Source: Chlamydoabsidia padenii (lineage: Eukaryota; Mucoromycota; Mucoromycetes; Mucorales; Cunninghamellaceae). From it: a stretch of DNA of 64,000 bases. This document shows positions 9,886 through 24,305 of this stretch, in pieces. Position 1 is the stretch's first letter. Each line of letters begins with the position of its first letter. Under the pieces are notes generated by a model, which was not told the origin of the DNA, made no database searches, and saw only the letters and a program-made list of their open reading frames with translations. Position numbers and translations under genes: made by a program. The stretch spans positions 164,924 to 228,923 of the forward strand of contig JAIWND010000039.1 in the NCBI GenBank assembly GCA_025330725.1. The letters are read 5' to 3'.

Positions 9886-9945
9886 AAGCCAAGCACCAAG
9901 TCCCTTGTTTCAGTTTGTTTGAACTTGTGTTGACTTTTACCTGTC

Positions 9946-10014
<69 letters not shown>

Positions 10015-10530
10015 GTTGAAGAGGAAACCCACATCGTATTCAAACCCCGCTTTCCTTGATTCCCTACCAAGATTTGGATGGGCTCTCCTCGCTCCATTGT
10101 TAAAGGATGCTAATGATTAAAGTGGCGATGTGAATACTATAACTCATTTCCAACATACTTTACCACAAAATTCAAGCGCCAAGATTCTTGTGTCAGTCTG
10201 TCCAAGCTTGTAATGAGTTTTACCTGTCTTTTGCAGAAGACTTTTTTTACAGATAGAAGCTAAAATCATATTCAAATACCACCAGTTCCTAGTCAGAATT
10301 GGAAGGAGCTTTACCGCTCCATTGTCATTGGATGCTAATGACTAAAGTGGCCATGTGGACACTATAATCCATTTCTAATATACTTTACTTCAAATTCAAG
10401 TACCAAGGCCCTTGTGTTAGTATGTTTAGACTTGCAATGACTTTTACCTTTCTTTGCGACGAAAGATATATTTTTTTCTAGACGAAAGAAAACTTCATTT
10501 TCAAACGCGGTTTATAGGATCAGATGTTCT
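9886..10530 (+). repeat. Degenerate tandem repeat, three units of ~225 bp
   Basis: Three imperfect copies start near 9886, 10172 and 10394. Each opens with a CAAG(T/C)xCCAAGxxxCTTGTGT-like phrase, followed by TTTTACCT, a segment reading ATGCTAATGA(T/C)TAAAGTGG, and CATTTC(C/T)AA(C/T)ATACTTTAC. The first unit is longer by about 60 bases because it holds the poly(A) tract at 9952-10011. No coding potential is seen. The repeats stop just before the promoter of the first secreted-protein gene. Confidence 0.65.
9952..10011 (+). repeat. Poly(A) tract, about 60 bases
   Basis: An uninterrupted run of about 60 A residues lies inside the first unit of the degenerate repeat. The other two units have a short T-rich stretch at the matching position. 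It could be a replication-slippage expansion or the tail of an old retroposed transcript. Confidence 0.85.
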
Positions 10531-10656
10531 TCATCTATTACCATTTATGTTTCATATTACCAATACACACCGGTTTACGGACCTTGAACCTTTCAGTACA
10601 TCTTTTCGCCATTCCTAATGCCGTTTTCAAAAAAAAAAAAAAAAAAATCTTGAAGG

Positions 10657-10664
10657 TATAAATA
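10657..10664 (+). promoter_or_regulatory. TATA box of secreted gene copy A
   Basis: TATAAATA followed by GGGTGATTAAAAGTTTAC lies 50 bases before the ATG of copy A. The same block precedes copies B (11761-11768) and C (12749-12756). Copy D has the altered form TACAAATA (14016-14023). Confidence 0.7.
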
Positions 10665-10706
10665 GGGTGATTAAAAGTTTACTTTTTTCCTGCCTTTACA
10701 GACAAA

Positions 10707-11015
10707 ATGAAGTTTTCTGGTTTGAGTTTGCTTGCAGTACCTTTCTTATTAGCTGGTGTGGCCTCGGCAGAAGATCAATTCACGCTTGTTTATGCGGATG
10801 GACCGGAAATGGTTGATTATGGAGCATGTAGCCCTATTACAAAACCAGATGGCACCCCATTGAGAATAATCGAACTCTCGGATTTTTCATTGTGCACTGT
10901 TTCAAGTGACCAATTCTGCCACTTGAAAGATATTAAGGACCGTATTATGCTGCCCCCAGGGAGATATCCAGCCCCAGCGGCTCCCCATGGCTATATCTCA
11001 TGCAAAATGCATTAG
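10707..11015 (+). CDS. Small secreted cysteine protein, tandem copy A
   Basis: Single-exon gene for a 102-aa protein of unknown function. Residues 1-21 (MKFSGLSLLAVPFLLAGVASA) are a clear signal peptide with a cleavage site near Ala21. The mature part holds four cysteines spaced C-x21-C-x7-C-x27-C, suggesting two disulfides, and a basic C-terminal end (SCKMH). It is the first of four tandem units of about 1 kb, with a TATA box 50 bases upstream and an AATAAAG near 11102. No known family could be named. The spacing around CTVSSDQFC and a later G-x-Y recalls beta/gamma-crystallin-like or killer-toxin-like secreted folds, but this is a guess. It is likely extracellular or bound to the cell wall. 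Confidence 0.8.
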   Translation: MKFSGLSLLAVPFLLAGVASAEDQFTLVYADGPEMVDYGACSPITKPDGTPLRIIELSDFSLCTVSSDQFCHLKDIKDRIMLPPGRYPAPAAPHGYISCKMH

Positions 11016-11812
11016 AAAAGGCTCCATGTTGGTTTTCTTTCTCTCTTAACCTATTAAGTTACTCTTGAATCCATTCTTTCTTTTGATGACGATAGTGCGA
11101 TAATAAAGAGGATGATGATAATTAAATAGAGGTATTGGTGTATTTCCAAATGATGAAAAACCCTTATCATCAATAAAGAAACCCCATGGAGGTTTACATG
11201 GCACTTTTACCGTTAGCCCGTATGATATGCCGCTCTTTTACATTATGTATCGATTTTTTACATTGATCGGGGCTGGAATATATTTCAGTCCCGCGAGGGG
11301 GTCATTATATGCCGGAGTAATAACTTTACAATGTTGATGTATCCAAGCATTTTGTTGGGATGAGATATCTTGTACAAATTAAAAACTATAAGCGTTTCAA
11401 AACAGCGTCTAATCTTTGCATGAACCTTTCAAATAAAGCAATATTGCCATTGACATTCAAACACCGACATTCATGCAAAAAAAAATCAAGTTGATTTCCC
11501 GCTTTCTCGCCGTCCTTCCCCTTTTTCGATAAAGTTACAGTTTTCAGGTAAAATAAAAACATAAAAAAATGCTTTCAGTTTATAGGATTGAGTGAGGTGG
11601 ATGAGAATGGAGGAACCGAAATCTAAGTATGTCTCTTTTTTGTTCCAGTTCTTGAGCTACCGACATGCGCTCCGAATACATACCGGTTTACCGACCTTGA
11701 ACCTTTCAGTACATCTTTTCGCCATTCCTAATGCCGTTTTCAAAAAAAAAATCTTGAAGGTATAAATAGGGTGATTAAAAGTTTACTTTTTTTTTCTGCC
11801 TTTACAGACAAA
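11016..11812. other. Intergenic spacer of tandem unit A to B
   Basis: Holds the 3' region of copy A (AATAAAG words), then the promoter of copy B. The part from 11016 to about 11500 repeats almost exactly at 12125-12610. A TTCATGCAA word (about 11471) and a CCCGC word about 20 bases later lie ~330 bases upstream of copy B. No further gene is seen. Confidence 0.6.
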
Positions 11813-12124
11813 ATGAAGTTTTCTGGTTTGAGTTTGCTTGCAGTACCTTTCTTATTAGCTGGTGTGGCCTTGGCAGAAGATCAATTCACGCTTATTTATG
11901 CGAATGGACCGGAAATGGTTGATTATGGAGCATGTAGCCCTATTACAAAACCAAATGGCCTCCCATTGAGACTACTCGATCTCCCGAATTTTTCATTGTG
12001 CACTGTTTCAAGTGACCCATCCTGTCACTTGGGAGATATTAGGGACCATATTATGCTGCCCCCAGGGAAATATCCAGCCCCAGAGGCTCCCCATGGCTTT
12101 ATCTCATGCAAAAAATTGCATTAG
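11813..12124 (+). CDS. Small secreted cysteine protein, tandem copy B
   Basis: 103-aa paralogue of copy A with the same signal peptide (one change, Ser to Leu, next to the cleavage site) and the same four-cysteine spacing (C-x21-C-x7-C-x27 or 28-C). Compared by eye with copy A, I count about 21 base substitutions in the coding region. About 20 of these change an amino acid; only a TGC/TGT cysteine codon is silent. The final codons also differ by a small insertion. The several hundred bases after the stop codon are nearly identical to those after copy A. I chose the ATG at 11813 because it matches copy A and lies 52 bases after TATAAATA; an upstream in-frame ATG at 11771 is not conserved. Confidence 0.8.
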   Translation: MKFSGLSLLAVPFLLAGVALAEDQFTLIYANGPEMVDYGACSPITKPNGLPLRLLDLPNFSLCTVSSDPSCHLGDIRDHIMLPPGKYPAPEAPHGFISCKKLH

Positions 12125-12799
12125 AAAAGGCTCCATGTTGGTTTTCTTTCTCTCTTAACCTATTAAGTTACTCTTGAATCCATTCTTTCTTTTGATGACG
12201 ATAGTGCGATAATAAAGAGGATGATGATAATTAAATAGAGGTATTGGTGTATTTCCAAATGATGAAAAACCCTTATCATCAATAAAGAAACCCCATGGAG
12301 GTTTACATGGCACTTTTACCGTTAGCCCGTATGATATGCCGCTCTTTTACATTATGTATCGATTTTTTACATTGATCGGGGCTGGAATATATTTCAGTCC
12401 CGCGAGGGGGTCATTATATGCCGGAGTAATAACTTTACAATGTTGATGGATCCAAGCATTTTGTTGGGATGAGATATCTTGTACAAATTAAAAACCAGAA
12501 GCGTTTCAAAACAGCGTCTAATCTTTGCATGAACCTTTCAAATAAAGTAATATTGCCATCGACATTCAAACACCGCCATTCATGCAAAAAAATCAAGTTG
12601 ATTTCCCGCTTTCTCGCCGTCCTTCCCCTTTTTTGTTCCGGCTCTTGAGCTACCGACATGCGCTCCGAATACATACCGGTTTACCGACCTTGAACCTTTC
12701 AGTACATTTCCACCCCTTCCTAATGCCGCTTCCAAAAGGCCTTGAAGGTATAAATAGGGTGATTAAAAGTTTACTTTTTTTCCTGCCTTTACAGACAAA
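12125..12799. other. Intergenic spacer of tandem unit B to C
   Basis: The first ~480 bases are the near-identical duplicate of the region after copy A. The TTCATGCAA...CCCGCTTTC pair is repeated near 12580-12612, about 200 bases upstream of copy C, followed by TATAAATA at 12749. No additional gene is seen. Confidence 0.6.
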
Positions 12800-13114
12800 A
12801 TGAAGTTTTCTGGTTTAAGTTTGCTTGCAGTGCCTCTCTTGTTAGCTGGTGTGGCCTCGGCAGAAGATCAAATAAGACTTTTTTACTGGCATGGGCAGGA
12901 AATGGTTGATTATGGAGCATGTAGTCCTCTCACAAAACCAGATGGTTCCCAATTAGTCCTAATCGAACTCTCAGTTGATGGGGTGTGCTCTGTTTCAAGT
13001 GACTCATCCTGTTCCTTGGGAGATATTAGCCCACCTGCTAAAGAATCTGCAGGACTAGTTCCTCCCCCACAAGATACCCATACCGGTTATTTTACATGCA
13101 AAACAATTCCTTAG
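12800..13114 (+). CDS. Small secreted cysteine protein, tandem copy C
   Basis: 104-aa paralogue with an almost unchanged signal peptide (MKFSGLSLLAVPLLLAGVAS) and cysteine spacing C-x21-C-x7-C-x28-C. The mature region is more diverged than A is from B, especially after the third cysteine (proline-rich PPPQDTHTG), while the DYGACSP and VSSDxxC blocks are kept. A TATA box lies at 12749. The 3' flank belongs to a different subtype, shared with copy D and not with A and B. Function unknown; secretion is the only confident inference. Confidence 0.78.
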   Translation: MKFSGLSLLAVPLLLAGVASAEDQIRLFYWHGQEMVDYGACSPLTKPDGSQLVLIELSVDGVCSVSSDSSCSLGDISPPAKESAGLVPPPQDTHTGYFTCKTIP

Positions 13115-13732: not shown

Positions 13733-13776
<44 letters not shown>

Positions 13777-14067
13777 CCTTTTCGAAGAGGTTAAGGTTTG
13801 AATGGAGCCGAAATCCAAGTATGCTTTTTTTCAGATGTTTACATACCAGCTACCTCCTACTTTTGAATGCATACAGGTTTATTGATCCCTCCTCCCGTCA
13901 GTGCCTCTTTCCCATGCCTCATATTTTCGAATACATAACGCTATGCGGATTCCTTTTGAAAACCTTCGGTACTTCTTTCCCATTTCTCAAAGCCGTCTTC
14001 TAAAAAGTTTGAATGTACAAATAGGGTGATTACAAGTTGTTGTTGTTTTTCCCCGACACAAACACAA
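13115..14067. other. Intergenic spacer of tandem unit C to D with T tract
   Basis: The 3' flank of copy C includes AATAAAGGG near 13200 and a GCGGGAATTGAAA variant near 13342, both with counterparts after copy D. A TTCATGCAA word (about 13683), CCCGC, and then a T run of about 41 bases (13736-13776) precede copy D. The 60-codon open frame at 13821 has no support. Confidence 0.5.
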
Positions 14068-14380
14068 TGAAGTTTTCTGGTTCAACTATTCTAGCAGTAT
14101 CTCTCATATTAGCTGGTGTGACCTCGGCAAAAATGAAGTGATACTCGGTTACGAAAATGGACAAACGCCTGTCGATTTTGGTGCATGTGCACCTGTTATG
14201 AAACTAAATGGCGCTGAATTGATCACCTTCTCTCTCACAGCTGATGCGCAGTGTTCTATTTCAAGCGACGATTCCTGTTCACCGGGAGCTATTAATCCTT
14301 ATACTAAACCGTTCAAAGGACAATATTCTGCTATAAAGTATTCTCCATATAGCTACAGGACATTTAAAAAAGATACTTAG
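14068..14380 (+). pseudogene. Small secreted cysteine protein, tandem copy D (frameshifted)
   Basis: The signal-peptide part is recognisable from ATG 14068 (MKFSGSTILAVSLILAG). The frame then breaks at the run of A after the cleavage site: one base appears missing relative to copies A-C, so a TGA follows within four codons. The homologous reading resumes in another frame through DFGACAPV, QCSISSDDSC and a G-x-Y, giving C-x21-C-x7-C. The fourth cysteine is replaced by Phe and the TATA box is TACAAATA. The several independent lesions favour real decay over a sequencing error, although the frameshift lies in a homopolymer. Confidence 0.7.
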
Positions 14381-15277: not shown

Positions 15278-17268
15278 CTAGTCATCCGTTTGGTCACTGG
15301 TATCATCGTCCGTCTTTTCACTATCGTCCGTATTGTCACCTTTATCCTCTGTAGTCAATTTGTCGTGCAACTTGGCTTGTTCCCGGTCCAGTCGAATACG
15401 TTCCAAAAATTCAGGCACCCGTTCAAACAGTCGTTTCAGCAAATCCTGTTCGCTGACTTTATCACCGGATCCTCCAATCTCCAAAAACAAGGCGACAAAA
15501 AAGCTTTGCATTTCGGCGGTGGTAACATGTCGTTCAGGGATCAAGGTCAATAGTTTTTTAATGGCTGCGTTCAAGTGTGTGATCCGGTCTTTGTCTTCAT
15601 CTTCACTGACTGGAGTTGGTAAATCATTGTTGATGATGACTGGTTGATCTTCCTCTTCCACCACGTTGATGTCATCGTTGTCGTCACCGAAATCGGGAGT
15701 AGCAAAGAATCGCCAAAACATGGCTTCGATTTGTTCGTGTACAGCATATCCCAGTTCCAATTTGACGTCCATTCGACCAGGTCTTAACAAGGCAGGTGTG
15801 ATTTTATTCATATCATTACAGGTCATGAATACCACTAATATAGTAAAAAAAAAAAAATAGGGAATGAGTTTGATCATGTTTCGTCATTTCCATTTTAATT
15901 TTCCTTCACTTACTTGATCCATCATTTCCGTCAATACCATCTAAAGCATTCAACAAACCAGACTTTGTAACAGAATCGGCGAGTTCATCATAGTGGTCCA
16001 CATCTTCGATGATCAAAAGAGTATTCTTTGGTGTTGCCGAGATACAATTTGAGAATTCGGTATCGCTGTCCAATTCACCTAGTTTAATCAACGCCAAATT
16101 ATAGTGTAGTTTTGCCTATTATCAAATCAACTTTAGTCATGGTATGTAGTGTGGAGGAGGGAGGGAGACTAGACTTACCGCGCACAACGTAATCAAGGAT
16201 GTTTTACCAGTTCCAGGAGGACCATATAATAGATAACCACGTCGATAGGGTAGACCTTTGCTTTTATACCAGTTTTGTCGTTTGATAAATCGTTTCATGT
16301 CACATAATAGATTTTCCTTGATACCAGTAGGTAAATTGACAGAATCATATCCACGAGGCTCGACGCTATTCTTTTGATACCAACTATCATAACCGTTCCA
16401 TTGTAAGATTTTGATCTACACAGTTTCAGAATACAACTAGTTAGTATTCCCCGTTTTATTCCCCCTCATTTGTTTTACTTACATTGTTGTCTTCATTGTC
16501 GTTGTAATTGTCGCACCATTCTTGTAAAATGTCCCGCAGAGTATCAATAGTTTCAGTGGGTGATGTGGTCATTGAGATGTTAATATAATCGGGTCCATGA
16601 CTAGTAGCCTTTTCTTCGTCTTCTTTGCAGAAGGACACAGTCAATACGTGACCTTTGTATACAATTTCATTATCGGTGTTATTACCTTTTCAATGTTAAA
16701 AAAAAGGTAGGTTAGAGTAAAAAAGGAAGAAAGAAGAAGGGGGGGGGACACTTACGAGGGTAAACGCCGACTGTGGGATTTTCATCCTCATCTGAATTTT
16801 CATTCGCCGCTCCTGGCTTTGATTCTTCATAAAGGGCAATAGCGTCGATCAGTTCAGGAAGTTGTTCAGTGTACTTCTTTATATAATATTGAATGGCATT
16901 GAAGGAATCGTCCTGATAGTAAACGCGCGCATTAACGGTTTTGGTTTGCTTGCCTAATCGATCCATCAAGTGTTCAACAAGTTTTTCCCATGACGTTCTA
17001 AGAATAGCTGGGGAGCCAAGAAAAAAAGAAGGCGGTATTTGAATTTCCATACACCCTAACTTCAGCCTTACAACTTACGAGCAATGTAAAAGAGAATCCC
17101 AAGCATGACGAAATCGTTTCCAAAGTACCGTTGAGCCAGTTTTGTTAATCGTTCTCCAAAAATACCATGCCAAAAAGTTTCCTCAGTAATGTTCTCGAGG
17201 AAATAGAGAATCTTCTCTACAATATAGATAAATCGCATGGATCGGACTTTGCTCAGTGCTAAAGGCAT
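15278..17268 (-). CDS. BCS1-like AAA ATPase
   Basis: AAA ATPase of the Bcs1 group. Family members sit in the mitochondrial inner membrane or elsewhere and move folded substrates such as the Rieske protein; this copy may be a paralogue. About six exons give roughly 550 aa. An N-terminal region (ATG 17268, MPLALSKVRS) is followed by the Bcs1-specific segment (VTGV-type YYIKKYTEQLP), then SVNLPTGIKENLLCDMKRF, Walker A GPPGTGKTS, Walker B TLLIIEDVDHYD, sensor FMTCNDMNKI and the LLRPGRMD arginine-finger region. Two acidic insertions (after the NDxDD stretch near 15690 and at the C-terminus, DDSEKTDDDTSDQTDD) are unusual. I see no strong N-terminal membrane helix, so true Bcs1 function is uncertain. 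Confidence 0.8.
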
Positions 17269-21828: not shown

Positions 21829-22357
21829 ATTAGATAGAACGTTGTATGCCTTAATCATTTAATCCATTAATAAATAAAAACTGCTCTGTGGATGGAACGT
21901 CTGTCACTTTGGGATTAGATTCTTTTTTTTTTCTTTACTCTAATAGAACCTCAAATACATCATCAATGCCTTTAAGAACAGTTAACAGCGCGAGTCGAAA
22001 ACTGTTCCTGAATTTCCTTTCTTTTTTTTTTTTTTTTGGAGAGGTGCGTAAACGTCTGCAACTTGAACATGGCAGCCGTAACAACATTAGTTTATGTCAA
22101 ACATACAAATATATACTAATCCAACTACTTGACAGAATAATATCAGAGTTAGCATGTATGTTATTTTTGGAATTAAAAACAATGATCTACAAATGATAAA
22201 CATCTGGAACAGAAAAGTGGTCGGTCAGTTCACACCAACCCGGCGTGGGTGACATCGAATGTCAACCACATCTTGCATAGGCTGCTTCGAAAAGGTGGCT
22301 TAAATGGTAAGGAGAAGAACAAACGCATTCATACTTCTTTACTTGACCTTTTTTTAA

Positions 22358-22420
<63 letters not shown>

Positions 22421-22538: not shown

Positions 22539-22871
22539 ATGAATTTCTTCTTGGCTCAATTAAGTCAAGCTCAGCCCGTCGCGTTGGATATCGCCACTCA
22601 AAACAAACCAGAACCAATGTTTTATATACTTGTTCACTACAGTGGAGATTCACCTTTTGAACACATTCCCCCAGGACAGTGTTTTCCAGGCACCCGTGAC
22701 AGTGCACCAATCGATGACTTGTTCTTCAAGTATGACAATAAATGCTACCTCTACCAAGACGCCAACTGTCAAACTCTTGTCCAACCAGATTCCGTTAACT
22801 TCAAGTCCGGAAAGTATCAACGAACTGTTTTGGAAAATAGTTTTAACCGTTGCCTAGTTACACTCACATAA
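22539..22871 (+). CDS. Small cysteine protein, diverged secreted-family member E
   Basis: 110-aa product with cysteine spacing C-x20-C-x7-C-x27-C, essentially that of the tandem copies at 10.7-14.4 kb, including the G-x-Y before the last cysteine (SGKYQRT). The middle block reads CYLYQDANC, which recalls beta/gamma-crystallin-type secreted proteins. The N-terminus from the ATG at 22539 (MNFFLAQLSQAQP) is short for a signal peptide and follows an in-frame TAA. Either the signal sequence is reduced, or the true start uses an upstream exon or was lost. The TATA-like sequence near 22477 and AATAAATAAA near 22950 suggest it is transcribed. Confidence 0.65.
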   Translation: MNFFLAQLSQAQPVALDIATQNKPEPMFYILVHYSGDSPFEHIPPGQCFPGTRDSAPIDDLFFKYDNKCYLYQDANCQTLVQPDSVNFKSGKYQRTVLENSFNRCLVTLT

Positions 22872-23938: not shown

Positions 23939-24305
23939 ATTCCTTTCCTTGTCTTTGATGCTTATTGGATGTCTTTTCTTTGACCCACTTGACTCAAGCT
24001 GAGCCCACCCCGACTGATATAATCGACGAAAACAAAGCAAGCGGACCAGGTGATATGACTATTCGTTATAAAGGAGAAAGATCTTTTGAAAATGTCTGCT
24101 TGGGAGAGTGTGTGAAAGTCATTCGTGATGGTAAATATTTGGATCTTGTGGGCTTCTCGCAATACACTTGATGTTACGTCTACAAGGACTCGGACTGTAA
24201 AGACATTATCCACCGTCTTCCCCTTGATTATCATCCTGGCTATTTCCCACCAGTTGTAACATCTGGTCCCGGTCGCTGCCACGCTTTTCACGGTCAAGTG
24301 TCGTG
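23939..24305 (+). pseudogene. Diverged secreted-family member F, broken
   Basis: A signal-peptide-like reading (KFLSLSLMLIGCLFF) starts at ATAAAATTC, where an ATG would be expected, and ends in a frameshift. The mature part continues in another frame as THLTQAEPTPTDIIDENK, matching the QLSQAQP region of gene E. The cysteine spacing is C-x20-C-x7-C-x26-C, but a TGA codon sits immediately before the second cysteine (QYT-stop-CYVYKDSDC). The final block GPGRCHAFHG is intact. Three independent lesions (lost start, frameshift, nonsense) argue for a decayed paralogue of E. Confidence 0.65.

Follow-up and report, generated by a model that had tools for sequence, protein, structure and literature searches.

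A 64,000-nucleotide stretch of the Chlamydoabsidia padenii genome (contig JAIWND010000039.1, positions 164,924 to 228,923, forward strand; hereafter the window) carries an array of small genes for putatively secreted proteins. C. padenii is a mucoralean mould that falls within Absidia in a large-subunit (LSU) tree (PMC8371387, in excerpt). The array holds four head-to-tail copies, A to D, starting at window positions 10707, 11813, 12800 and 14067; A and B lie where the original prediction, made from the letters of the window, had placed them. Its features are:

10707..11015, + strand: gene A, predicted secreted four-cysteine protein of 102 amino acids; unbroken open reading frame (ORF) and codon comparison with B
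10707..10769, + strand: putative signal peptide of gene A, codons 1-21, judged by eye
11813..12124, + strand: gene B, 103 amino acids, sister of A and 82% identical to it; ORF and codon comparison
12800..13114, + strand: gene C, 104 amino acids, older paralogue serving as outgroup; ORF and codon comparison
14067..14380, + strand: D, degenerate copy; sequence, ORF piece 14138-14380, family match 14132-14359 and alignment
11016..11531, + strand: 3' flank of A; flank alignment and genome search
12125..12631, + strand: 3' flank of B; flank alignment and genome search
11532..11637, + strand: about 105 bases of the A-B spacer that the B-C spacer lacks; alignment read by eye, ends ambiguous because of T runs

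The reading frame of D is interrupted close to the border of the signal peptide, and its aligned sequence lacks the last cysteine of the family.

A and B form a tandem duplicate, and replacement changes in its mature part outpace both silent and flanking changes. Their codon alignment has 20 differing codons, 19 replacing the amino acid and one silent (TGC/TGT, Cys71). These amount to 22 substitutions, of which 21 are replacements: a single one falls in signal codons 1-21 and the other 20 in the mature part. Close to the 3' end there is also a 3-nt indel. A DNA alignment sets the indel elsewhere and yields 21 substitutions, with 1/63 bases in the signal codons, themselves placed by eye, and 20/246 in the mature part and stop; the signal peptide is thus near-constant and the mature part variable. 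The same partition is seen between A and C, where dN is 0.022 in the signal part vs 0.355 in the mature part, and signal dN/dS (the ratio of replacement to silent rates) is 0.10. All four mature cysteines are conserved between A and B. The original prediction had counted about 21 coding differences, some 20 of them replacements and one a silent cysteine codon, with every cysteine kept, and our alignment bears this reading out. It had also allowed that silent sites might prove far more numerous than read; a single silent change was found.

Replacement sites differed at 21/237 (8.9%), as against 7/576 (1.2%) for silent sites and 3' flank together (Fisher P = 4e-7). Taking the least favourable flank alone (distal 3', 6/183) gave P = 0.015, or P = 0.003 with silent sites added. 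Silent divergence (1/69.5) was indistinguishable from that of the flank (6/507; P = 0.59). By counting, A-B dN/dS was 6.5; by GY94 likelihood, omega was 8.9 (likelihood ratio P = 0.0035), in line with the earlier description of a pattern opposite to purifying selection. When 22 random substitutions were simulated on A under four assumed transition biases, the mean number of silent changes was 5.2-6.8, and one or fewer occurred in 0.15-1.4% of runs. Polarised with C as outgroup, 9 changes were derived in B and 8 in A, with 5 undecided. These codon comparisons strongly indicate positive selection for protein change on both copies after duplication. Since A-B omega is well above 1 and silent divergence matches the flank, recent duplication followed by diversifying selection, as originally proposed, is the best account.

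Two alternatives meet their difficulty in these same counts. Relaxed constraint, in which the new copy drifted without function, would suit the wider family, where at least five loci are visibly broken (D, a remnant at 24 kb in the window, C24:63575, C24:158718 and C42) and older pairs stand at omega 0.6-1. It predicts omega near 1, however, where 6-9 was observed, and the observed replacement change exceeds the flank rate; A and B have also changed alike, with frames open and the four cysteines retained. We judge it distinctly unlikely. A hotspot of local mutation, or mutagenesis directed at the coding sequence, would account for the sharp drop of changes at the coding borders and perhaps for the involvement of adenine on the coding strand in 17 of the 22 substitutions. 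Yet hardly any change is seen at silent sites within this putative hotspot, and the spectrum is mixed (A/G 9, C/T 5, A/C 5 and A/T 2 over the first 297 bases), which makes such a hotspot scarcely credible. Changes between G and C or G and T were not seen among the 22.

Behind the A and B stop codons the flanks were much as first described (about 330 identical bases, then some six differences in about 130). There were 0 differences over 324 bases (11016-11339), followed by six substitutions in the 128 bases from 11340 to 11467. The A-B and B-C spacers have 507 aligned bases in common with these 6 substitutions, and a genome search found this stretch in two copies only. In the 5' flank, 129 aligned bases contain 2 substitutions, and A and T runs there also differ in length. 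Differences are fewer in the proximal 3' flank than in the distal (0/324 vs 6/183, P = 0.002, with the boundary set post hoc), so gene conversion may have homogenised the proximal part. A larger role for conversion, with coding divergence that is old and flanks and promoter homogenised later while the mature coding part was spared, draws on this same difference and on the near-identity of A/B promoter and signal peptide. Old divergence, though, implies abundant silent changes, as in A-C, where about 23 are counted in 71 silent sites; conversion alone would leave them in place, and with only one present it does not explain the coding part. Sparing of the mature part would itself call for selection. 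We regard this scenario as unlikely, though less so than relaxed constraint; the conversion originally suggested may hold for part of the flank, where it is a likely added process, and fails for the coding part.

The origin of the duplicate can be read in the promoters, where a 25-base core element recurs in all four copies:

10655..10679, + strand: core promoter element of copy A, with a TATA box; same sequence in B and C, 0 expected by shuffling
11759..11783, + strand: core promoter element, copy B; identical to A and C
12747..12771, + strand: core promoter element, copy C; identical to A and B
14014..14038, + strand: core promoter element of copy D, differing at 3 positions
11635..11714, + strand: left part of the B promoter, 98% identical to the C promoter (12628-12707); repeat comparison
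11693..11714, + strand: putative crossover interval, between a C-like base at 11692 and an A-like base at 11715; three-way comparison

The B promoter is a mosaic, C-like through 11692 and A-like starting at 11715. This switch places an unequal crossover within 22 identical bases. This mosaic strongly indicates that the A/B duplicate arose by unequal crossing-over between the promoter of the ancestral A/B gene and that of C, and most of the 1.1-kb unit would therefore be of one age. The same 22 bases offer a possible false-join site, where an assembler could have set two alleles in tandem and made the array partly artificial. This we consider very unlikely: 34.2 Mb in 95 contigs suggests a long-read assembly able to span 3.5 kb, and the replacement excess would stand for alleles as well. 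The A/B promoter also contains an A run whose length varies between copies.

We found a second duplicate pair, C51:106079 and C42:62362, in another branch of the family. The duplication that contains it spans at least 2.4 kb at 93% identity, and the pair repeats the A/B pattern of coding divergence exceeding that of the flank. Coding sequence differs at 29/287 positions (10.1%), upstream sequence at 64/1447 and downstream at 22/672 (flanks 3.3-4.4%). Replacement differences (24/208) exceed flank differences (86/2119; P = 2e-5), and silent differences (4/59) do not differ from them (P = 0.31). Among 100-base windows, the two highest inner ones (13 and 12 differences) are coding; an edge flank window has 14. 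A and B had been picked in the original prediction for their striking look, and their P values flatter the pair for that reason; C51/C42 was found by family search, not by its divergence pattern.

Several results weigh against diversifying selection as the explanation. The codon comparison originally proposed as a check puts omega above 1 for A-B and below 1 for A-C (0.73) and B-C (0.86; both GY94). The sample of events is small, 22 substitutions in a single pair, and 11 of the 19 A-B replacements are conservative by BLOSUM62. Enrichment of A-B changes in loops fell short of significance (12/40 vs 6/41, P = 0.08). For C51/C42, GY94 gave an omega of 2.1, which does not exceed 1 significantly (P = 0.21); the counted value was 1.85. 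Some of the change in C42 may be decay, as its reading frame is interrupted within the signal peptide. In the same C51 branch, the remaining five pairs are all older, and counting gives them dN/dS values of 0.64-0.96. A single age for the whole A/B unit is also uncertain if the proximal 3' flank was homogenised. Recombination can mimic positive selection (PMC3820680, in the part available), and our omega tests are not recombination-aware.

Genome searches with nine single-protein queries (A, C and seven others) gave about 22 loci by our own count. The window contains six (A to D, 22539 and 23974) and C24 eight (63575, 66873, 86307, 118140, 134560, 158718, 176399 and 177513), and the rest are on C64, C34, C51, C42, C60, C2 (two) and C15. 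Some of these links are weak, resting on the cysteine pattern. The two distant loci in the window are:

22539..22871, + strand: distant family member of 110 amino acids with a short signal-like N-terminus; E 2.9e-4 from the C64 query
23974..24264, + strand: remnant of a distant family member, interrupted by an internal TGA; E 0.018 from the C64 query and 8e-11 from query 22539

We aligned 17 members, 16 from this genome and the metagenome protein P0003; all 17 have the four cysteines, with seven residues between the middle two. The family has no convincing match in Pfam, NCBIfam or PDB sequences. Beginning at alignment column 46, P0003 has the same residue as C24:176399 at 58/87 positions; the family therefore probably occurs outside this genome too. 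C24:176399 thus has a recognisable metagenomic relative, unlike the fast A/B pair. Birth and death is the best reading of the family's evolution.

Elsewhere around the array, three diverged direct repeats of about 60 bases lie upstream of A at 9890-10480 (near 9890, 10178 and 10401), with common text like TGACTTTTACCTGTC. Runs of A or T, 41-64 bases long, occur at 9952-10011, 13736-13776 and 22356-22419. Adjoining the array, minus-strand ORFs at 15278-17050 resemble, by eye, pieces of a BCS1-like AAA ATPase.

The beta-gamma-crystallin fold builds two Greek keys from some 80-90 residues and carries the motif Aromatic-x4-aromatic-x-Gly. Our two AlphaFold models, of A and C64, most resemble a single domain of this kind, with moderate scores; Foldseek matched the C64 model to microbial beta-gamma-crystallins with probability 0.99. 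In the alignment the motif may be partly matched, with an aromatic residue five positions before Cys3 in 14/17 members, Cys in place of the second aromatic, and Gly in 4/17. Against this fold, Foldseek E-values were 0.045 or worse, and the structural Z was near 6, a level the tool rates as common. Domains of GH29 scored equal to crystallins; among the 50 Foldseek matches listed for model A, a GH29 fucosidase came top, with few crystallins and many ribosomal or viral chains. A, B and C also lack the aromatic residue of the motif. Crystallin Pfam models gave no match at E up to 1 in the 17 members, and we do not assign the family to crystallins by sequence. The models suggest that the protein, putatively secreted and with four cysteines, has a single beta-gamma-crystallin-like domain.

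Microbial beta-gamma-crystallins such as 1hdf (spherulin 3a) and Neurospora APP (5z6e) resemble the family models in domain size and strand arrangement; the family differs in its apparent secretion, its four invariant cysteines and its lack of a Pfam crystallin match. Toxins of the HM-1 type kill sensitive fungi by disturbing cell-wall synthesis. HM-1 (WmKT), the killer toxin of Williopsis/Cyberlindnera mrakii (PDB 1wkt), has the beta-gamma-crystallin fold that the A and C64 models suggest, but identity in structural alignments is 7% and 13%, and it has no sequence match to the family. The small plant antimicrobial protein MiAMP1 (1c01) was among the matches listed in three structural searches, and the small antimicrobial AFP1 of Streptomyces tendae (1g6e) in one of them, low down (E 0.47); both differ in sequence. 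In venom phospholipase A2 and conotoxin families, change is quicker in the mature coding sequence than in the untranslated and signal regions; these are animal venoms, and the likeness to A/B is the fast mature part. The HM-1 precursor has 125 residues (PMC12715866, in excerpt), and A, B and C have 102-104. Phytophthora SCR74 proteins are small secreted cysteine-rich effectors under positive selection, with conserved cysteines, highly similar 2-kb flanks and one pseudogene (PMC7327169, in the portion available). The A/B family resembles them in these gene and sequence features; SCR74 differs in belonging to an unrelated organism and sequence, and in having an established plant host.

The A/B pattern suggests an arms race with something outside the cell. 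Taken together, the family's secretion (judged by eye), its bracing by cysteines, its birth and death in tandem and its replacement-driven change are consistent with a protein acting at a contested interface. Unequal crossing-over between promoters would have produced the B copy, after which positive selection would have changed the mature protein in both A and B. Loops on a cysteine-braced beta scaffold may contact a changing extracellular partner, most likely one of a competing or parasitising microbe, in killer-toxin-like or inhibitor-like antagonism. Duplication would supply extra copies free to change, with promoter and signal peptide kept constant. We favour antagonism towards other microbes as the function, with inhibitor, recognition and mating roles also possible. 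Taken whole, a secreted binding or antagonism family evolving by birth and death under diversifying selection, with A/B its crossover-born pair, has in our estimate about an even chance of being right. A broader version is rather improbable: that a family of about 22 secreted beta-gamma-crystallin-like proteins, restricted to this lineage and apparently for the most part unannotated, arms this mould against rival or parasitic microbes, or marks self and non-self at hyphal contact, and diversifies by promoter crossing-over, flank homogenisation and positive selection on the mature domain only.

Diversifying secreted families are already well known in plant pathogens, as with SCR74, and also from venoms. 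None from Mucorales appeared among the open-access matches listed, a narrow test on titles and abstract starts. C. padenii is not known as a pathogen. If our reading is true, this mould carries a molecular arms race, whose partner could be searched for directly with small proteins, and the two duplicate pairs would provide natural near-identical variants for comparison.
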